64,000 nt of DNA from Candidatus Accumulibacter regalis (lineage in GTDB: Bacteria > Pseudomonadota > Gammaproteobacteria > Burkholderiales > Rhodocyclaceae): the NCBI GenBank assembly GCA_000585075.1, contig JEMY01000017.1, positions 62,001-126,000 of the forward strand. The letters run 5' to 3'. Within the stretch, counting starts at the first letter, position 1; each line of letters begins with the position of its first letter. Below are positions 47,826-57,378 of this stretch, piece after piece. A model generated the notes under the pieces. That model searched no databases. It had not been told where the DNA came from and saw nothing but the letters and a program-made list of their open reading frames with translations. The translations under genes were made by a program, and so were the position numbers.

Positions 47826-49499
47826 ATGACTGAGGTCAACAGCGGGACGCAGGAAGCCGTTCAGCATCTGCAGGCAGCTGATGCACTGATCGAGAAATCG
47901 CTGCGCTGGATGAAGCAGCAATGCGCCGGTGGAAAGGGGGTCTCGAACGAGAAACTCGATGCCCATCAGATGGCCAGCTTCGACCTTGCGTGGTGCGCCG
48001 CAGAATCGACCGCCGCGCGCTTTGCCGCGGAATATGCCGACAAGGTTGCCGCGGCGGCGACGGGCGACGGCCCCTGCGTGGAACAGCGCATGGCCCTGGC
48101 CTTTTGTGCCGAGGCCTTGCAGAACATCCACAATCGTTTCTGGGCACGACCGCAGAGTTTCGGGGTGAACGCGGCCGACCTGGCCGCTTTCGCGTCAACC
48201 GCACTCGCCGGGTTTTGCCAGACGCAGCTGGATGCCGACAATCTCGCTGCTTTGGGCAGGGAGGTCGTGGCCCTGGATGGCGATAGCGGCGCCTATATGC
48301 TCGGCGACGACGCCCTGATGATGCAGGACGCCTTTCGCAAGCTGGCCAGCAACGTGGTCATGCCCCTAGCCGAGGACATTCATCGCCACGACCGCATCAT
48401 CCCGCAGGAAATCCTCGATCCGCTGACCGAAATGGGCTGCTTCGGGCTGTCGATCCCCGAGCGCTACGGTGGCATCCAGAGCGACGATCATGAAGACAAC
48501 ATGGGCATGATCGTGGTCACCGAGGAGCTTTCACGCGGCTCGCTCGGCGCAGCGGGCAGCCTGATCACCCGTCCGGAAATCCTCAGTCGCGCGCTGCAGA
48601 AGGGGGGGACGGAAGAGCAGCGGCAGAAATGGTTGCCCCGGGTGGCGATGGGCGACCCCTTGTGCGCCATCGCCGTCACCGAACCGGATACCGGTTCGGA
48701 CGTCGCGGCGATGCGCCTCAAGGCAAGCAAGTGTGAGGGTGGCTGGCTGCTCGATGGCGTCAAGACCTGGTGCACCATGGCCGGGAAGGCGGGCGTCCTC
48801 CTGGTTCTGGCCCGCTCCAACCCCGATCGCTCGCTTGGTCACAAAGGCCTGAGCATGTTCCTGGTCGAAAAGGACTCGTATGACGGCCATGATTTCGAGT
48901 ATCGCCAGGCACAGGGTGGCGTACTGACCGGCCGGGCCATTTCGACCATCGGCTATCGCGGCATGCATTCCTACGAGGTCTTCTTCGACAGTGTCTTCGT
49001 CCCGGACGAAAACCTGGTCGGCGGGCCGGCCGGTGAAGGGAAAGGCTTCTACTTCACGATGGCCGGATTTGCCGGCGGGCGCATTCAGACGGCCGCACGG
49101 GCCATCGGTGTGATGCAGGCCGCTTTCGAACGCGCTGTTTCCTATGCTGGCGAGCGCAAGGCATTCGGCAAACCTATCGGCGAGTATCAACTGACGCTGG
49201 TCAAGCTGGCGCGCATGGCGACTCTGCTGACCGTTTCCCGCCAATTCACCTACGCCGTCGGGCGTTTGATGGACCAGGGTTCGGGACAGATGGAAGCGAG
49301 CATGGTGAAGCTCTTTACCTGCCGGACTGCGGAATGGCTGACCCGCGAAGCGGTGCAGATTCACGGTGGCATGGGTTATGCCGAGGAGTCGCCGGTCAGC
49401 CGTTACTTCCTGGATGCCCGTGTGCTGTCGATTTTCGAGGGCGCCGAAGAAACGCTGGCGCTCAAGGTCATCGCCCGCTCGCTGGTCGAAGCGGTGTAG
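47826..49499 (+). CDS. mcd: (2S)-methylsuccinyl-CoA dehydrogenase
   Basis: 557 residues, about 150 longer at the N-terminus than ordinary acyl-CoA dehydrogenases, as in Mcd. It oxidises methylsuccinyl-CoA to mesaconyl-C1-CoA, passing electrons to ETF. FAD-dehydrogenase signatures are CAIAVTEPDTGSDVAAMRLKA, the catalytic Glu region around FEGAEETLALKVIARSL, and QIHGGMGYAEESPVSRYFLDAR. Its place between the lyase-like gene and the hydratase/ecm genes supports Mcd. Confidence 0.9.
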   Translation: MTEVNSGTQEAVQHLQAADALIEKSLRWMKQQCAGGKGVSNEKLDAHQMASFDLAWCAAESTAARFAAEYADKVAAAATGDGPCVEQRMALAFCAEALQNIHNRFWARPQSFGVNAADLAAFASTALAGFCQTQLDADNLAALGREVVALDGDSGAYMLGDDALMMQDAFRKLASNVVMPLAEDIHRHDRIIPQEILDPLTEMGCFGLSIPERYGGIQSDDHEDNMGMIVVTEELSRGSLGAAGSLITRPEILSRALQKGGTEEQRQKWLPRVAMGDPLCAIAVTEPDTGSDVAAMRLKASKCEGGWLLDGVKTWCTMAGKAGVLLVLARSNPDRSLGHKGLSMFLVEKDSYDGHDFEYRQAQGGVLTGRAISTIGYRGMHSYEVFFDSVFVPDENLVGGPAGEGKGFYFTMAGFAGGRIQTAARAIGVMQAAFERAVSYAGERKAFGKPIGEYQLTLVKLARMATLLTVSRQFTYAVGRLMDQGSGQMEASMVKLFTCRTAEWLTREAVQIHGGMGYAEESPVSRYFLDARVLSIFEGAEETLALKVIARSLVEAV

Positions 49500-49547: not shown

Positions 49548-50729
49548 ATGATGCAAGCGATTCGCTTTCGTGCGCAGGCAGAACTGGCTGGAAAAGTGAA
49601 AGTGAACCTGCAGCAAGTGCGCTATCCCCACTACGGCCGCTATCTGGAGGAGTTCGTACCGGGGCAGGTGTTTGTTCACCCGCGTGCCTTCACCTTCTTT
49701 CCTGCCCAGATGGAGGCCTTTGCCCGCACCTACATGCAGTGCAATCCCCTGTATCTCAACGACCAGTACGCCCGCTCCAGCGGCTTCGCCGGCCTGCTGG
49801 CTTCGCCGCAGATGGTGTTCAACGTCGTGCTCTCGCTGGGCGTGCAGAACGATTCGGAAAAGGCGATGGCCAATCTCGGCTATTACGATGCCCAGTACCT
49901 GCGGCCGGTCTATCCGATGGATACGATTCGCTCGCTGACCAAGGTCATCGAGCGCAAGGAGCGTGGCGCCGGCAAGCCGGGCATCGTTACCATCCGAACG
50001 CTGGGCATCAATCAGGACGACCAGGTCGTTCTGCAGTACGAGCGCAAGATCATGGTCGCCGGCCAGGGCGATCGTCCGCCGACGACGCCATTGCCGAAGG
50101 CGACGGCGATGGCGGCCTTCCCGTGGGTCGACGAGGCCGAGGTCGCCCTGCCGGATTTCCCGGAGTCGTTCGCTTCCGGCCTGACCGGCCCCAACTCCTA
50201 CTTCGAGGACTTCGCCGTCGGCGAGATCATTGTCCATGCCAATGGCCGAACCATCACCGATGAACATCTATCGCTGACCTACGCGGTGGGCAATACGCAT
50301 CCGCTGCACTTCGATCGCGTCTTCAGTTCCGGCCTCTCCGGAAAAATGAGCGGTGATCCGATCGTCTATGGCGGTCTGGTCTTCGCCTGGCTGGAAGGCC
50401 TGGCCAGTCGCGATGTCAGCGAGAACAGCGTTTGGGAGCTGGGTTTTACCGAGGGTTACCACACTCAGCCGTGCATCGGCGGTGATACCGTCGCCGCCCT
50501 GTCGCGCGTATTGGCTGCCGAAGATGCGCCGGGCGGGCTGGGCAGCAAGCTCGGTATCGTCACCTTTCAGTTGATCGGCGTCAAGAACCTCAGCGCCGCC
50601 AACGCCTTGGCCGAATACGGCGAGGACCTGTTCGGCAAGGAAAACGACAAGAAGGCGATGGACAAGGAGAAGATCGATGCGAAGATTTTTGAGATCGAGA
50701 GACGTCTCCTGATCAGGAAAAGGGGTTAG
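49548..50729 (+). CDS. MaoC-type double-hotdog acyl-CoA hydratase
   Basis: 393 residues (ATG 49551 also possible). Two hotdog halves: the first has RYPHYGRYLEEFVPGQVF and NPLYLNDQYARSSGFAGLLASP, the second YFEDFAVGEIIVHANGRTITDEH and the intact hydratase site NTHPLHFDRVF with PIVYGGLVFAW. It resembles Mch in architecture but is clearly divergent from the Mch at 41023. In the operon between mcd and ecm it may act on mesaconyl-CoA or a related C5 ester; specificity cannot be told from sequence. Confidence 0.78.
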   Translation: MMQAIRFRAQAELAGKVKVNLQQVRYPHYGRYLEEFVPGQVFVHPRAFTFFPAQMEAFARTYMQCNPLYLNDQYARSSGFAGLLASPQMVFNVVLSLGVQNDSEKAMANLGYYDAQYLRPVYPMDTIRSLTKVIERKERGAGKPGIVTIRTLGINQDDQVVLQYERKIMVAGQGDRPPTTPLPKATAMAAFPWVDEAEVALPDFPESFASGLTGPNSYFEDFAVGEIIVHANGRTITDEHLSLTYAVGNTHPLHFDRVFSSGLSGKMSGDPIVYGGLVFAWLEGLASRDVSENSVWELGFTEGYHTQPCIGGDTVAALSRVLAAEDAPGGLGSKLGIVTFQLIGVKNLSAANALAEYGEDLFGKENDKKAMDKEKIDAKIFEIERRLLIRKRG

Positions 50730-50731
50730 TC

Positions 50732-52750
50732 ATGGATTCTCGCCAAACGAAACGCGATCGCCCCTGGTTGATGCGCACCTATAGTGGACACAGCTCGGCC
50801 AGGGCGTCGAACGCGCTCTATCGAACCAATCTGGCGAAAGGCCAGACCGGACTGTCGGTGGCCTTCGATCTGCCGACACAGACCGGCTACGACGCCGACA
50901 ATCCGCTGGCGCGAGGCGAAGTCGGCAAGGTCGGGGTGCCGATCTCGCATATCGAGGACATGGATCAGCTGTTCGACCAGATCCCGCTCGATCAGATGAA
51001 CACGGCGATGACCATCAATGCCACGGCGCCATGGCTATTGTCGTTGTATATCGGCCTGGCGCAACGACGGGGGATCGATCCCGGGCAGCTGAGCGGCACG
51101 ACCCAGAACGACATCATCAAGGAATATCTGTCGCGCGGCACCTACATCTATCCGCCGGGTCCGTCGATGCGGTTGATCGCCGACACCATCACCTACACCA
51201 TCAAGCACGTGCCCAAGTGGAATCCGACCAATATCTGCAGTTACCACTTGCAGGAGGCGGGGGCAACACCGGTCCAGGAGCTGGCCTATGCGTTGTGCGC
51301 GGCGATGGCGGTTCTGGACCGGGTCCAGGCGTCGGGAGAAATCAAGACGGACGAGTTTTCGCAGGTCGTCGAGCGCATCTCGTTCTTTGTCAACGCCGGT
51401 ATCCGCTTCGTCGAGGAGTGCTGCAAGCTGCGCGCATTCGGCGAGATGTGGGACGAATTGACGCTGGGTCGCTACAGGGTCGACGATCCGAAGCTGCGCC
51501 GATTCCGCTACGGCGTGCAGGTGAACTCGCTGGGGCTTACCGAGCCGCAGCCGGAAAACAATGTGCAGAGAATCGTTCTGGAAATGCTGGCGGTGGTTCT
51601 TTCCAAAGGCGCGCGGGCGCGCGCAATCCAGCTTCCCGCCTGGAACGAGGCGATGGGGCTGCCGCGCCCCTGGGATCAGCAATGGGCGCTGCGCATGCAA
51701 CAGGTGATGGCTTTCGAAACCGACCTTCTCGAGTACGAGGATATTCTCGACGGCTCGCCGGTGATTGCCGCCAAGGTCAAGCAACTGGTTGAGGGCGCCA
51801 GAAAGGAGATCGCCAATGTCGAAGCGCAGGGCGGGATCATTGCCGCGATCGAATCGGGCTACGTCAAGCGCGAACTGGTCGCCAGCCATATGCAGCGCTT
51901 GCGCGCCATCGAGTCGGGCGAACTGAAAATCATCGGCGTCAACTGCTTCCAGGAAAGCGCCGAATCGCCGCTGACTCTGGGCAGCGACGGTGGCATCATG
52001 AAGACCGATCCGTCCGCCGAGCGCGAGCAGATCGAACGGCTGCAGGCGCATCGGAAAAATCGCAACGACGCCGACGTACAGGCCGCCTTGCAGGGGCTCA
52101 GCGACGCCGCCAAGAGCGGTGAAAATATCATGCCCAGTTCGATTCGCTGCGCCATGGCGGGGGTCAGTACCGGCGAATGGGGCGATTCGCTGCGTGCCGT
52201 GTTCGGCGAGTTCAGGCCGCCGACGGGTATCGATATTGCCATCGACAACCGCGCCGTACTCGGCAAGAAGGATGAGGTCACCGAGTTGCGCGCCAGAGTC
52301 GCCAGTACCGGTGCGGCCGTGGGCCGTCCCTTGAAGCTATTGGTCGGCAAACCCGGGCTCGACGGACACTCCAACGGCGCCGAACAGGTTGCCGTCAAGG
52401 CCAGGGACGTCGGCTTCGAGGTGGTCTACGACGGCATACGGCTGACGCCGCAGGAGATCGCTCAGGCGGCCGAGGAGGAGGGCGTACATATGGTCGGCCT
52501 GTCGATTCTTTCGGGAAGTCATATGGAACTGGTGACTTCGGTTCTCGAGGAGCTGCGCGCGCGCGACCTGGCGACCGTTCCGGTGATCGCCGGTGGGATC
52601 ATCCCGCAGGAGGACGCCAAGAAACTCGCCGCGCAGGGCGTCAGCGCCGTCTATACGCCCAAGGATTTCAATCTCAATACGATCATGGCCGACATGGTCG
52701 ACGTGATCCGCGAAGCCAATGGTCTGGCGCGGCTGGGTCCGCTGCCCTGA
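50732..52750 (+). CDS. ecm: Ethylmalonyl-CoA mutase (B12-dependent)
   Basis: 672 residues. It converts (2R)-ethylmalonyl-CoA to (2S)-methylsuccinyl-CoA. The N-terminal TIM barrel opens with RPWLMRTYSGHSSARASNALYR and SVAFDLPTQTGYDADNPLARGEVGKVGVPI, the pattern of Ecm rather than methylmalonyl-CoA mutase. The B12 domain has DGHSNG with the cobalt-binding His at 546, then GLSILSGSH and VIAGGIIP. It starts 2 nt after the maoC stop. No B12 riboswitch was seen upstream. Confidence 0.93.
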   Translation: MDSRQTKRDRPWLMRTYSGHSSARASNALYRTNLAKGQTGLSVAFDLPTQTGYDADNPLARGEVGKVGVPISHIEDMDQLFDQIPLDQMNTAMTINATAPWLLSLYIGLAQRRGIDPGQLSGTTQNDIIKEYLSRGTYIYPPGPSMRLIADTITYTIKHVPKWNPTNICSYHLQEAGATPVQELAYALCAAMAVLDRVQASGEIKTDEFSQVVERISFFVNAGIRFVEECCKLRAFGEMWDELTLGRYRVDDPKLRRFRYGVQVNSLGLTEPQPENNVQRIVLEMLAVVLSKGARARAIQLPAWNEAMGLPRPWDQQWALRMQQVMAFETDLLEYEDILDGSPVIAAKVKQLVEGARKEIANVEAQGGIIAAIESGYVKRELVASHMQRLRAIESGELKIIGVNCFQESAESPLTLGSDGGIMKTDPSAEREQIERLQAHRKNRNDADVQAALQGLSDAAKSGENIMPSSIRCAMAGVSTGEWGDSLRAVFGEFRPPTGIDIAIDNRAVLGKKDEVTELRARVASTGAAVGRPLKLLVGKPGLDGHSNGAEQVAVKARDVGFEVVYDGIRLTPQEIAQAAEEEGVHMVGLSILSGSHMELVTSVLEELRARDLATVPVIAGGIIPQEDAKKLAAQGVSAVYTPKDFNLNTIMADMVDVIREANGLARLGPLP

Positions 52751-52757
52751 CCACCAG

Positions 52758-53756
52758 ATGACCCCGGCAGCGCTTCCCGATCCCGAACAGTTGGCTTTAC
52801 GCATCCTGCGCCGGGAGCGTGCGGCGGTGGCCCGAGGCTTGAATCTGCTCGACAACAAGTTGGCGGAAGCGCGCCAGTGCTCGGTACGCTTGCTGGCAGC
52901 GCTTTCCGGCGAGCATTCGCTGAATGGGGGCCATCTTATCGGTATCACCGGCCCGCCGGGCGCCGGCAAGTCGTCACTTGTCTCGGCGATGATTCGCGAA
53001 TGGCGTCGCGCGGGCAGGACGGTCGGAGTGCTTGCCGTCGACCCGTCGAGTCGGCCCGAGTTGGGTGGCGGCGCCTTGCTTGGCGATCGAATTCGGATCA
53101 AGAACGCGGCGCACGACGAGGGCCTGTTCATTCGCTCGCTGGCCAATCGCAACCAGTTGGGTGGCGTGGCGACCGAGGTCTGGCCGATGAGCTGGTTGAT
53201 GCTGGCCGCGTTCGATATCGTCGTCGTCGAGACGGTTGGCGTTGGGCAAACGGAAATCGATATTGCCGAGATCGGCGATACCGTCTGTTATGTGGCGCAG
53301 CCGGCCTCGGGGGATACGATCCAGTATCTGAAGTCGGGAATCATCGAGATTCCGGATATTTTCGCCGTCAATAAGTCCGACCTTGGCGCTGCGGCGTACA
53401 AGACGGCCGGCGAAATTGGCCGCAGCGCTTCCCGGCAGGATCGCCGGGACGATTGGGATTATCCCGTGTGCCTGGTGAGCGCGACGATGAATACGGGGAT
53501 CACCGAGCTGCATGGGAATTTTGATAGACACCGAAGCTTTCTCGCGCATGCGGGCCTGCTGCAAAAGTTGCGCACCCGCCACCAGAGCGCCTGGGTAGTG
53601 CGTGTGTTGAAAGAGGAATTCGGGACTTTTGGCGTCGAGCTTATCGGTGGCTATGCTGAAATCGGCAAGCGCCTGGAGGCGCAGTATGGCAATCAATTCG
53701 AAGAATGCGAGCGAATGCGGCAGCAGATTATTTCCAGATTCAAGTCGTCAGATTGA
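52758..53756 (+). CDS. meaB: MeaB/ArgK-type G-protein chaperone of acyl-CoA mutase
   Basis: 332 residues from ATG 52758, 7 nt after ecm. It protects and reloads the B12 mutase using GTP. GITGPPGAGKSSLVSAM is the P-loop, GVLAVDPSSRPELGGGALLGDRIRI follows, and VVVETVGVGQTEIDIAEIGD and NKSDLGA are the switch and base-recognition motifs. The segment FIRSLANRNQLGG departs slightly from the usual MRSLATRGHLGG, as expected for an Ecm-dedicated copy. Confidence 0.92.
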   Translation: MTPAALPDPEQLALRILRRERAAVARGLNLLDNKLAEARQCSVRLLAALSGEHSLNGGHLIGITGPPGAGKSSLVSAMIREWRRAGRTVGVLAVDPSSRPELGGGALLGDRIRIKNAAHDEGLFIRSLANRNQLGGVATEVWPMSWLMLAAFDIVVVETVGVGQTEIDIAEIGDTVCYVAQPASGDTIQYLKSGIIEIPDIFAVNKSDLGAAAYKTAGEIGRSASRQDRRDDWDYPVCLVSATMNTGITELHGNFDRHRSFLAHAGLLQKLRTRHQSAWVVRVLKEEFGTFGVELIGGYAEIGKRLEAQYGNQFEECERMRQQIISRFKSSD

Positions 53757-53788: not shown

Positions 53789-55543
53789 ATGAGCAAGAAA
53801 CTCTATGAAATAGGTGATATGCCTCCCCTGGGCGAAGTTCCGGAACAAATGCACGCCTGGCTGATTCGCGCCGAGCGCTTTGGCCAGCCAACGGCGGCGT
53901 TTCAGAAGGAAGTGGTGACGACGCCGTCGATTGCCGACGATGAGGTTCTCGTTTACGTGATGGCGGCAGGAATCAACTACAACAACGTCTGGGCGGGAAT
54001 GGGAGTTCCCGTCAATGTGATCGGCGCTCGCAACAAGGCTGGCGAAACGGAGGACTTCCACATCGGCGGCAGTGATGCATCCGGAATCGTCTACGCGGTG
54101 GGAAAGGACGTGACCAACGTCAAGGTGGGCGACGAGGTGGTCATGCATTGCGGCATCTATGACCGCAGCTGCCCGTGGGTCAAGAAAGGCGGCGATCCGA
54201 TGTACTCGCCTTCCTTCAAGATCTGGGGTTACGAGACCAATTGGGGCAGCTTTGCCCAATTCACGAAAGTGCAGGCGCAGCAGTGCATGCCCAAGCCAAA
54301 GCACATGAACTGGGAAGAGGCCGCTGCCTATACCCTGGTCGCGGCAACTGCCTGGCGGATGCTGCACGGCTGGGAAAGCAGTTCAGTCAAGAAGGGCGAC
54401 GTGGCCTTGATCTGGGGTGGCGCGGGAGGCCTGGGCTCGATGGCCATTCAGATCGCCAAGGCGGTCGGCGCGACTTCGGTGGCCATCGTCTCGGGCGAGG
54501 ACAAGTTCGACTACTGCACGAAGTTGGGCGCCAAAGGCTGCATCAACCGCAATGACTTCGATCACTGGGGCATGCTGCCGCACTGGAAGGACAGCGCCGG
54601 CTACGCCAAGTGGCTGAAGGGAGTGCGCGGCTTCGGCGCGAAGATCTGGGAAGTGCTGGGTGAGAAGAGGGCGCCGAACATCGTCTTCGAGCATCCCGGC
54701 GAAACGACCATTCCGACGTCGATTTTCGTTTGCGAAACCGGTGGCATGGTGGTGGTCTGCGCCGGTACCACTGGTTACAATGCGACGGTCGATTTGCGCT
54801 ATCTGTGGATGCGGCAGAAGCGTTTGCAGGGTTCGCACTTCGCCAATACCGTGCAGTGCAACGAGATGAACGAGTTGGCACTGAGCGGGCAACTTGATCC
54901 CTGTATGTCGCGGGCGTTCACCTATGAAGAACTGCCGATTGCCCATCAGCTGATGGCCGACAACAAACACCCGCACGGCAACATGTCGGTGCTCGTCGGT
55001 GCCGCCGAGTTCGGTCTCGGGGCCAGCGGCAAGCCGGCAGTGGCGATGGTCCATCCGACGCTGCCCAAGGGCGACGTGCACACCTCGCCGGCGCCTTACC
55101 CGATGTCCACCCCGCTGCCTGGCATTGCCGAGGGCGAGCCGATCACCATTGCCGACGACGGCAGCAAGGTTCGCGACTTGATGCATCGTGGCATTATTTC
55201 CTGCGCGCCGGACGAGACTGTCGGAGCGGTGGCCAAGATCATGGTCGGCAACGAGATTCATGCGGTGGTGGTCATGGATGCGCAGGGCGCTGCCGTCGGC
55301 GTCGTGTCGCAGACGGATATGGTGCTCGCGCGGCAGGGCCGGACTCCGGACCAGGCACGCTCGCTGCGGGCCAGCGAAGTCATGACTCCGGGTTGCGCGA
55401 CCTGCGATGCCGATATGCTCCTGAGCGACGCTGTCAGCCTGATGACCGGCCGGCGCATGCATCGTCTGGTGGTCACCGAGAAGGGTCAGCCGGTCGGGGT
55501 CATTTCGATGACCGACGTGGTGCGCAAGATCATCGGCGACTAG
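53789..55543 (+). CDS. ccr: Crotonyl-CoA carboxylase/reductase with C-terminal CBS domain pair
   Basis: 584 residues; known Ccr proteins are about 430. It reductively carboxylates crotonyl-CoA to ethylmalonyl-CoA with NADPH. Residues 1-~425 are a complete Ccr: [27 protein letters not shown] and GSHFANTVQ cover the CO2-site Asn, Glu and His regions, and [19 protein letters not shown] is the NADPH Rossmann loop. After a linker (~425-458), residues 459-584 form two CBS motifs ([19 protein letters not shown]...GVVSQTDMV and [15 protein letters not shown]...GVISMTDVV). CBS pairs bind adenine nucleotides in other proteins, so allosteric control is likely but unproven. Last gene of the operon, with GGAG before the ATG. 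Confidence 0.95.
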
Positions 55544-55649: not shown

Positions 55650-55683
55650 CCCTTCTCGTCCTTGGCGACGGGGAGGGGCTTTT
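55650..55683 (+). terminator. Predicted terminator of the ethylmalonyl-CoA operon
   Basis: CCCTTCTCGTC (55650-55660) pairs over 11 positions (two G-U) with GACGGGGAGGG (55667-55677), then GC and four T. It lies 107 nt after ccr and just before the next gene's ribosome site. A second perfect hairpin, CCCTGC-ccag-GCAGGG at 55621-55636, has no T run. Confidence 0.5.
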
Positions 55684-55709
55684 CCCTGCAACGACGGAGG
55701 GGTTCCAAC

Positions 55710-56687
55710 GTGCGAGCCATCGTCTGCCATGAACTGACCGGTCCTGCCTCCTTGCGCCTTGAGGAGCTTGCCGAACCTCGCCCCGGTCCTGGTCAGGTGC
55801 GCATCGGCGTGCGCGCCTGCGGCGTGAATTTTGCCGATAGCCTGATTACCCGCGGCCAGTATCAGAAGCAGCCACAGCTTCCCTTCAGTCCGGGCTTTGA
55901 AGTATCCGGCGAGGTGCTGGAATTGGCTGCCGGTGTGGAAGGTGTCGCCCGTGGCGATCGGGTCCTGGCCATGACGCCGTGTGGCGGTTACGCCGAGCAG
56001 GTCGTCGCCGATGCGAACCGCTGCCTGCAGATCCCCGCGGAAATGTCCTGGGAGCATGCGGCGGCGTTCCCGGTGGTGTTTGGCACGTCGCATATCGCCC
56101 TGTGGCGTCGGGCACGCCTGCAGTCCGGCGAGACTCTGGTGGTGCATGGCGCCTCGGGCGGCGTTGGCTTGACCGCCGTCGCCATTGGCAAGCAATTGGG
56201 CGCGACGGTCATTGCCACCGCGAGCAGCCCGGAAAAACTCGCGCTGGCTGCTGCGCACGGCGCCGATCACCTGCTTGATTCCAGCTGTGAGGATGTTCGC
56301 GAGCGGATCAGGGAACTGACGGCCGGTCGCGGTGCAGACGTGGTCTACGATCCGGTCGGTGGTGAGCTATTTACCGCCTCGCTGCGCAGCATGGCTCTTG
56401 AAGGACGCATCCTGGTCATCGGTTTTGCCGGTGGAGGCGTGCCGCAGATTCCCGCAAATCACCTGCTCGTCAAGAATGTGGACGTCATCGGCGTCAACTG
56501 GCCGGCTTATGCCGAGCTCAATCCACGGGTGATGACCGAGAGTCTTCAGACGCTTGTTCGCTGGTATGTCGAAGGCGCCATCAAGCCGCATGTCTCGGCA
56601 AGCTATCCGCTGGAAGAGGCGCTTGCGGCGCTCGATCAGGTGGTGACCAGAAAATCGACGGGCAAGGTCGTTATCACGACCGCGTGA
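55710..56687 (+). CDS. QOR-type zinc-free medium-chain reductase
   Basis: 325 residues from GTG 55710, with GGAGG nine bases upstream. Medium-chain dehydrogenase/reductase without zinc ligands: GVNFADSLITRGQYQKQPQLPF, GASGGVGLTAVAIGKQLGA (NADPH loop) and DVVYDPVGGELFTASLR. The family includes NADPH:quinone reductases and enoyl-thioester reductases such as acryloyl-CoA reductase. Its location beside ccr and phaJ hints at an enoyl-CoA substrate, but this is inference. Confidence 0.82.
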   Translation: MRAIVCHELTGPASLRLEELAEPRPGPGQVRIGVRACGVNFADSLITRGQYQKQPQLPFSPGFEVSGEVLELAAGVEGVARGDRVLAMTPCGGYAEQVVADANRCLQIPAEMSWEHAAAFPVVFGTSHIALWRRARLQSGETLVVHGASGGVGLTAVAIGKQLGATVIATASSPEKLALAAAHGADHLLDSSCEDVRERIRELTAGRGADVVYDPVGGELFTASLRSMALEGRILVIGFAGGGVPQIPANHLLVKNVDVIGVNWPAYAELNPRVMTESLQTLVRWYVEGAIKPHVSASYPLEEALAALDQVVTRKSTGKVVITTA

Positions 56688-56928: not shown

Positions 56929-57378
56929 ATGAATCCCCAGAACGGTTACGATATTGAAGACCTGTCCGTCGGCATGAGCGCAGAAATCGCCAAAACGATT
57001 ACTGATGCCGACCTGGTCCTGTTTGCCGGCGTGTCCACCGACGTCAATGCCGTGCATATGGACGAAGATTTTGCGCGCACGACGATGTTTGGCGGCCGTA
57101 TCGCGCACGGCATGTTGTCGGCCAGCCTGATCTCCGCGGTGCTTGGCAATCGCCTGCCCGGCCCCGGCTGTATTTACATGAGCCAGTCCCTGCGTTTCCG
57201 CGCGCCGGTGCGTCCCGGTGATACGGTGCACGCCAAGGTGACCGTCAAGGAAGTTTTCGCCGACAAGGGCCGGGTGGCGCTCGAGACTGTGTGCACGGTG
57301 GGCGACAAGGTGGTCATCGACGGCGATGCGATGTTGATGCCCACCTCACGCAGCAAGCGCGAAGCGGCCGGCAAGTAA
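56929..57378 (+). CDS. phaJ: (R)-specific enoyl-CoA hydratase, PhaJ type
   Basis: 149 residues, a single MaoC hotdog. ADLVLFAGVSTDVNAVHMDEDFA includes the catalytic Asp and His, and FGGRIAHGMLSASLISAVLGNRLPGPG follows, as in PhaJ. It interconverts crotonyl-CoA and (R)-3-hydroxybutyryl-CoA, so it can feed PHB-derived units to ccr or the reverse. It has its own promoter. Confidence 0.86.
   Translation: MNPQNGYDIEDLSVGMSAEIAKTITDADLVLFAGVSTDVNAVHMDEDFARTTMFGGRIAHGMLSASLISAVLGNRLPGPGCIYMSQSLRFRAPVRPGDTVHAKVTVKEVFADKGRVALETVCTVGDKVVIDGDAMLMPTSRSKREAAGK

Follow-up and report, generated by a model that had tools for sequence, protein, structure and literature searches.

The step that commits crotonyl-CoA, together with CO2 and NADPH, to the ethylmalonyl-CoA (EMC) pathway is catalysed by crotonyl-CoA carboxylase/reductase (Ccr), and the enoyl-CoA carboxylases/reductases (ECRs), the enzyme group to which Ccr belongs, are favourite parts for synthetic pathways. 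ECRs have been called the fastest CO2 fixers (PMC12632816). The closest described relatives of the gene presented here are the Ccr enzymes of the EMC pathway (TIGR01751; 4gi2, 9kva; AntE 4y0k; K. setae 6na3/6owe), with which it shares the core, the catalytic residues and the EMC operon. The solved Ccr/ECR structures (10 chains listed) end at about residue 415 of our protein and so leave no room for a CBS pair, unlike the fused protein, in which a pair of CBS domains follows the enzyme.

A Ccr core, a linker and a CBS pair in one reading frame

The window, a stretch of 64,000 nucleotides from a contig of Candidatus Accumulibacter regalis, carries the ccr-CBS fusion gene at 53789-55543 of the plus strand. 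It is a single open reading frame of 584 amino acids plus stop, with an ATG start, a purine-rich aaggag shortly 5' of the ATG, no internal stops and full-length homologues elsewhere. The catalytic core, delimited by TIGR01751 and by alignments with Ccr structures in the PDB, occupies residues 1-412 (53789-55024, plus strand). It is followed by a linker of residues ~413-454 (55025-55150, plus strand), defined by pLDDT, conservation and dN/dS, which is predicted to be flexible and holds a conserved proline-rich stretch around HPYPxSxPLP. The CBS pair spans residues ~458-582, with CBS domain 1 at 55169-55330 (PF00571, 45.5 bits) and CBS domain 2 at 55370-55534 (51.4 bits), both on the plus strand and above the Pfam cut-off of 24 bits. 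The initial annotation had described a Ccr extended at its C-terminus by a linker and two CBS motifs, and this layout was confirmed: the solved chains, 410-467 residues long, align only as far as residue 405-415 here, so that ~170 residues are extra.

The NCBIfam model TIGR01751 (crotonyl-CoA carboxylase/reductase) scores 554.8 bits over residues 17-412, well above its cut-off of 378.55. The CO2-site residues of the K. setae ECR, which we take to be N81, F170, E171 and H365, align with N65, Y148, E149 and H350 of the fusion (the chain numbering in this alignment runs two ahead). Among 24 diverse fusions N65 and H350 are invariant, while Y148 and E149 are kept in at least 90%; tyrosine at position 148 is also present in the solved 4gi2. 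The core is predicted to be a Ccr enzyme with its catalytic residues kept, and would be expected to be active.

Distribution of the fusion

Of 28 genomes of the genus, 23 have full-length ccr-CBS: the one that the window comes from and, at 85-95% identity, 22 more. The gene is absent from 33 further genomes, nine of the family and 24 of the order. A scan of named genomes with seven seeds from the Accumulibacter genus and one other confirmed 568 stretches, the best 80 of which yielded the 79 loci kept. Frame reading sorted them into 68 fused loci, nine unfused ones, one cut by a contig end (L148) and one broken (L116); the 68 fused loci hold 71 fused genes, three of them having two (best 80 of 568). 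Names of polyphosphate- or glycogen-accumulating organisms (PAOs and GAOs), several of which live in wastewater plants, account for 32 of the 68 (15 Accumulibacter, two Propionivibrio, 13 Competibacteraceae and two Defluviicoccus; best 80 of 568), and the remaining fused loci come from Rhodospirillales, other Alpha- and Gammaproteobacteria, Myxococcota/'Deltaproteobacteria', SAR324, Caldilineales and Anaerolineae. As the scan was seeded mostly with Accumulibacter and took the best 80 of 568 stretches, neither 68/79 nor 32/68 is a frequency. L140, whose match to query positions 1-545 had made it a candidate fusion, was rejected: its frame ends at 431 amino acids, with no CBS domain in the following 900 bases and no tail match in the locus.

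The initial annotation had named a sequencing join as a possible origin of the fusion. An assembly or sequencing join is ruled out by the full-length homologues in 22 of the 27 other genus genomes and by the many fused loci elsewhere (68 of 79; best 80 of 568). Together, the sequences support one protein in which a linker, predicted to be flexible, joins the Ccr core to the CBS pair, and a fusion that is real, old and conserved.

In evenly drawn samples the fusion is rare. In the window's class it was found in three of 369 genomes, namely this genus and two genomes with proteins 100% identical to those of L090 (Gammaproteobacteria) and L092 (Competibacteraceae), a fourth match being unfused. 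The class of G349 gave two fusions in 289 genomes, eight of which matched at E <= 1e-200, and the phylum of G452 gave one in 301, G452 being the sample centre itself, with 14 genomes matched. A phylum sample of 398 genomes had Ccr in 61, and the fusion was found in the window's genome and in G349 (L069); here 32 ordinary frames and two others above 560 amino acids were read, frame length being the sole criterion for the remainder. Those two longer frames (G296 and G378) contained no CBS motif, and the Ccr of G378 is interrupted. Plasmid records matched in 63 cases, none of them covering 80% of the fusion. The link to a polyphosphate- and PHB-cycling life, which the initial annotation had found attractive, fared partly well: it is suggestive because the same clade occurs in PAOs and GAOs of several lineages, but it is not exclusive, as MAGs of SAR324, Myxococcota and Chloroflexota carry the fusion too.

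Gene neighbourhood

The gene order in the window, Mcd-Mch-Ecm-MeaB-Ccr-CBS, is that of an EMC operon, and all of its genes lie on the plus strand. The acyl-CoA dehydrogenase at 47826-49499 has acyl-CoA dehydrogenase Pfam domains and recurs as a neighbour in relatives; it is likely a methylsuccinyl-CoA dehydrogenase (Mcd), a name taken from its place in the operon. A mesaconyl-CoA hydratase-like protein (Mch) follows at 49548-50729 (PF19315, 69.5 bits, cut-off 26.5), and then a candidate B12-dependent ethylmalonyl-CoA mutase (Ecm) at 50732-52750 (PF01642 and PF02310). The Ecm candidate shares only 37-38% identity with the second mutase of seven genus genomes and stays under the cut-off of the methylmalonyl-CoA mutase equivalog NF006944 of NCBIfam (530.1 vs 876). 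A MeaB-type GTPase at 52719-53756 (PF03308, 219.6 bits; NCBIfam TIGR00750 slightly under its cut-off, 228.3 vs 240.75) precedes ccr-CBS. The next gene downstream of the fusion, at 55662-56687 on the same strand, encodes a quinone-oxidoreductase-like MDR protein by profile matches, with a counterpart of at least 65% identity in 29 of the 68 fused loci (best 80 of 568 stretches). Beyond it, at 56929-57378 (plus strand), lies a MaoC-type enoyl-CoA hydratase (PF01575, 87.3 bits) that, if its presumed PhaJ-like role is right, might either form or consume crotonyl-CoA.

At least one EMC-type gene lies near Ccr in 54 of 68 fused and six of nine unfused loci, and MeaB ends at most 350 bp upstream of Ccr in 42 of 68 and four of nine, respectively (both among the best 80 of 568; identity thresholds were 50% for Ecm, 45% for MeaB, a loose 38% for Mcd and 50% for Mch, and some loci stop early). 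The five genus genomes without ccr-CBS (G005, G006, G008, G018 and G024, with estimated completeness of 99, 100, 93, 83 and 93%) lack Ecm and carry just the distant mutase (37-38% identity), and two Ccr-positive control genomes have the distant mutase together with Ecm at 87-89%; Ccr-CBS thus goes with the EMC pathway. The whole EMC operon is probably absent from these five genomes, and it seems to vary within the genus.

Further copies were observed in some loci. L093, L120 and L135 each hold two fused ccr genes, adjacent or a few kb apart. In a Contendobacter MAG (L098:5054-10474) and a Competibacter MAG (L103:5199-10447) a second Ccr-CBS copy immediately follows a carbonic anhydrase gene (PF00484) and is itself followed by a MarR-type regulator on the opposite strand and a GTP-type PEP carboxykinase, a neighbourhood that is possibly a CO2-handling cluster.

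Evolutionary history

The initial annotation had suggested mapping the fusion on a tree of long Ccr homologues. Fused loci turned out to be many and their tails group together, whereas their cores do not form one clade. On the tree of Ccr cores, which kept 77 of 115 rows (19 close relatives were dropped, as were 19 of the 32 ordinary Ccr rows, and L070 with its very long branch was included), the fused label needs at least four changes, the contig-truncated L148 being uncounted, and a single clade of fused cores was rejected by the AU test (p 0.00245). Compared with 23 other CBS pairs, picked from 29 fetched loci with six left out, the CBS tails fall on one side, but with support of only 78/87 and in 80% of bootstrap trees; L189, which belongs to the other group and has a long branch, comes off the same open fork as the tails. 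Grouped tails on ungrouped cores would fit one old fusion with several losses, or a transfer of the tail.

Nine close relatives (66-80% identity over the best segment; best 80 of 568) have no CBS pair, so the Ccr enzyme seemingly does not need it. A detached CBS gene as the source of the fusion was sought in these nine loci of ~13 kb each, and none was found (tblastn with five tails, E 1e-3). A tail-profile search of seven genomes with unfused copies only turned up nothing closer than a distant CBS pair (E 8.7e-21 or worse), with no CBS pair at 1e-10 in one of them; fused tails in three other genomes scored between E 5.2e-52 and 1.3e-61. In L128 (6001-7356) the start of the linker is kept, the frame stops at 452 amino acids without a CBS domain, and a fused copy (L105) is present in the same genome, which would make it the clearest case of CBS loss. 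The MAG that holds L128 is labelled Kineosporiaceae, a label that may be doubtful because its Ccr adjoins the Competibacteraceae/Accumulibacter clade on the core tree.

The CBS pair and its possible ligands

The window protein has both [ST]xxD motifs intact, as do 66 of 68 tails, a count that omits five Chloroflexota proteins above 700 amino acids. The CBS1 motif, S507-Q-T-D510 (55307-55318, plus strand), has S/T507 and D510 in all 68 tails, and the CBS2 motif, S573-M-T-D576 (55505-55516, plus strand), has S573 and D576 in 67 of 68 each, the CBS2 of L139 and L142 being without its S or D. H558 is kept in 66, R559 in 67 and H491 in 62 of the 68 tails. The [ST]xxD motif is presumably the ribose/phosphate motif of nucleotide-binding CBS domains, and we take the pair equivalent to H558-R559 to contact phosphate in AMPK gamma. 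Three cysteines also recur, C472 in 62, C536 in 57 and C539 in 60 of the 68 tails (window positions 55202-55204, 55394-55396 and 55403-55405); they could be redox-sensitive, metal-binding or merely structural. Four Chloroflexota proteins of 747-781 amino acids (L126, L133, L134 and L136) have four CBS motifs, that is, two consecutive pairs after the Ccr core; in L131, also from Chloroflexota, three motifs are seen before the contig ends, and L138 from Anaerolineae has a single pair.

Predicted alone, the CBS module reaches a pLDDT of 92.4; the full-length model has a mean of 70.8, with the linker (412-454) below 50. As for the interface between the CBS pair and the core, whose prediction the initial annotation had put forward, the CBS fold is confident, but the full-length model gives no view of how the pair would contact the core. 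The nearest solved matches include AcuB with AMP/ADP (Z 18.7 over 125 residues, rmsd 1.8), Atu1752 (3fhm, 18.4), MJ0100 with MTA/SAM (18.2) and CBSX2 with AMP (18.0); Z values within 1 are ties, so the fold comparison does not choose the ligand. By comparison of predicted structure the pair resembles pairs solved with AMP, ADP or ATP, and the tail profile matches AMPK gamma-1 at E ~6e-17. With a confidently predicted fold and both nucleotide-type motifs kept, the nucleotide-sensing CBS pair of the initial annotation is partly supported.

Selection on the tail was estimated from 17 ungapped sequences (the window, 15 Accumulibacter loci and L137). Median dN/dS over 136 pairs (Nei-Gojobori) is 0.059 for the core, 0.107 for the CBS pair and 0.176 for the linker, and a value of ~0.11 places the CBS pair under purifying selection. 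The CBS tail is therefore highly improbable as a neutral or decaying passenger: although some relatives have no CBS pair and L128 keeps a linker remnant only, its dN/dS over these 17 sequences is not near 1, and the conservation of the tail across phyla in 68 fused loci (best 80 of 568) speaks against a passenger and an assembly artefact alike.

Some CBS pairs bind no ligand, and CBS pairs commonly dimerise. The tail might be structural, an oligomerisation or docking module for Ccr or for partner enzymes that senses nothing. Prolines of the linker recur in most of the 68 tails despite the predicted disorder (P434 in 61, P438 in 59 and P442 in 63), and such a conserved proline-rich motif could dock. 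The nucleotide-motif residues are, however, more strictly kept than the linker, and six of the nine unfused relatives have an EMC-type gene nearby without any CBS pair (best 80 of 568), which makes a purely structural role unlikely, even if the oligomeric state of ECRs may affect their activity (PMC12632816).

It is somewhat more conceivable, though still rather doubtful, that the pair regulates Ccr through another ligand, such as SAM/MTA, a dinucleotide (c-di-AMP), (p)ppGpp/GTP or a pyridine nucleotide reporting redox state. The ligands of solved pairs with this fold vary widely (SAM, MTA, c-di-AMP, nucleotides), which counts against certainty about an adenine nucleotide; the nearest include SAM/MTA- and c-di-AMP-bound ones and IMPDH with ATP plus ppGpp. 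Sequence alone fixes no CBS ligand, but [ST]xxD at both sites and the histidine-arginine pair in CBS2 suit adenosine nucleotides at least equally, if AMPK gamma is taken as the guide. A redox ligand would be sensible because the EMC pathway in PAOs and GAOs is tied to anaerobic redox balance and treated as a redox outlet (PMC12604563, section 4.2.3), and the conserved C472, C536 and C539 could add redox sensitivity. An adenine nucleotide is nonetheless the most likely ligand, with about an even chance of being the right one.

A possible role in storage metabolism

Our main reading, to which we give a probability of roughly 0.5, is that Ccr is under allosteric control by an adenine nucleotide through its permanent C-terminal Bateman (CBS-pair) module. 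The two [ST]xxD sites of the CBS pair would take up AMP, ADP or ATP, and the pair would probably dimerise with that of a neighbouring subunit, altering the activity of the catalytic oligomer. Such control would set the share of crotonyl-CoA that is committed with CO2 and NADPH to ethylmalonyl-CoA. Crotonyl-CoA can exchange with the PHB monomer pool as well, and in PAOs and GAOs this carbon may end up in PHB, so that the CBS pair could tune the split between PHB and the EMC pathway, and a sensor on the committing enzyme would add fast control on top of transcription. We infer the allosteric effect, its sign and its use in feast/famine cycling.

Published work offers some context for this reading. 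In some species crotonyl-CoA is connected to the precursor of PHB by PhaJ (PMC2289847), and metatranscriptomics links the EMC pathway to redox balance under phosphate limitation (PMC12604563). According to the same source, EMC transcription rises under low phosphate in type I Accumulibacter, while Propionivibrio and type II Accumulibacter respond by raising the methylmalonyl-CoA route (PMC12604563). This speaks against our reading; Propionivibrio genomes nevertheless carry the fusion (L076 and L081). In Contendobacter the propionyl-CoA supply for PHV has been assigned to the EMC pathway (PMC8956781), and in Defluviicoccus the pathway is described as complete in five genomes and incomplete in the rest (PMC9041414).

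A broader and distinctly speculative extension, which we consider improbable, is that the fusions form a distinct class of CO2-fixing enoyl-CoA carboxylases/reductases set directly by adenylate energy charge, a PHB/EMC switch that spread among unrelated PAOs and GAOs because feast/famine conditions reward it, with the second copy in the two Competibacteraceae MAGs belonging to a separate CO2-handling cluster.

Comparison with known systems

No paper in the full-text literature searched, which covers few subscription papers, mentions a 'CBS domain' together with either crotonyl-CoA carboxylase or crotonyl-CoA reductase, and none there mentions one together with Accumulibacter; the literature matches listed in broader full-text searching held no report of a Ccr-CBS protein. 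Nor was a built-in control of ECRs found described in the literature searched. A natural, transferable sensor domain on an ECR would help to account for the way in which bacteria with storage cycles divide their acetyl units between PHB and the EMC pathway, and a CBS-regulated Ccr, if true, would be a ready-made switch for engineers.

The nearest parallels in architecture are IMP dehydrogenase and cystathionine beta-synthase, in which two CBS domains of the same fold are likewise attached to a metabolic enzyme and form a candidate allosteric module; the enzyme part of ccr-CBS, unlike theirs, is a reductive carboxylase. AcuB and CBSX2 are like the tail in fold and AMPK gamma-1 is similar to it by profile, but AcuB, CBSX2 and AMPK gamma are either separate proteins or parts of other complexes. 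Ccr and the CBS pair are thus each of a known kind; what is new is their combination, its spread and the version with doubled CBS pairs.
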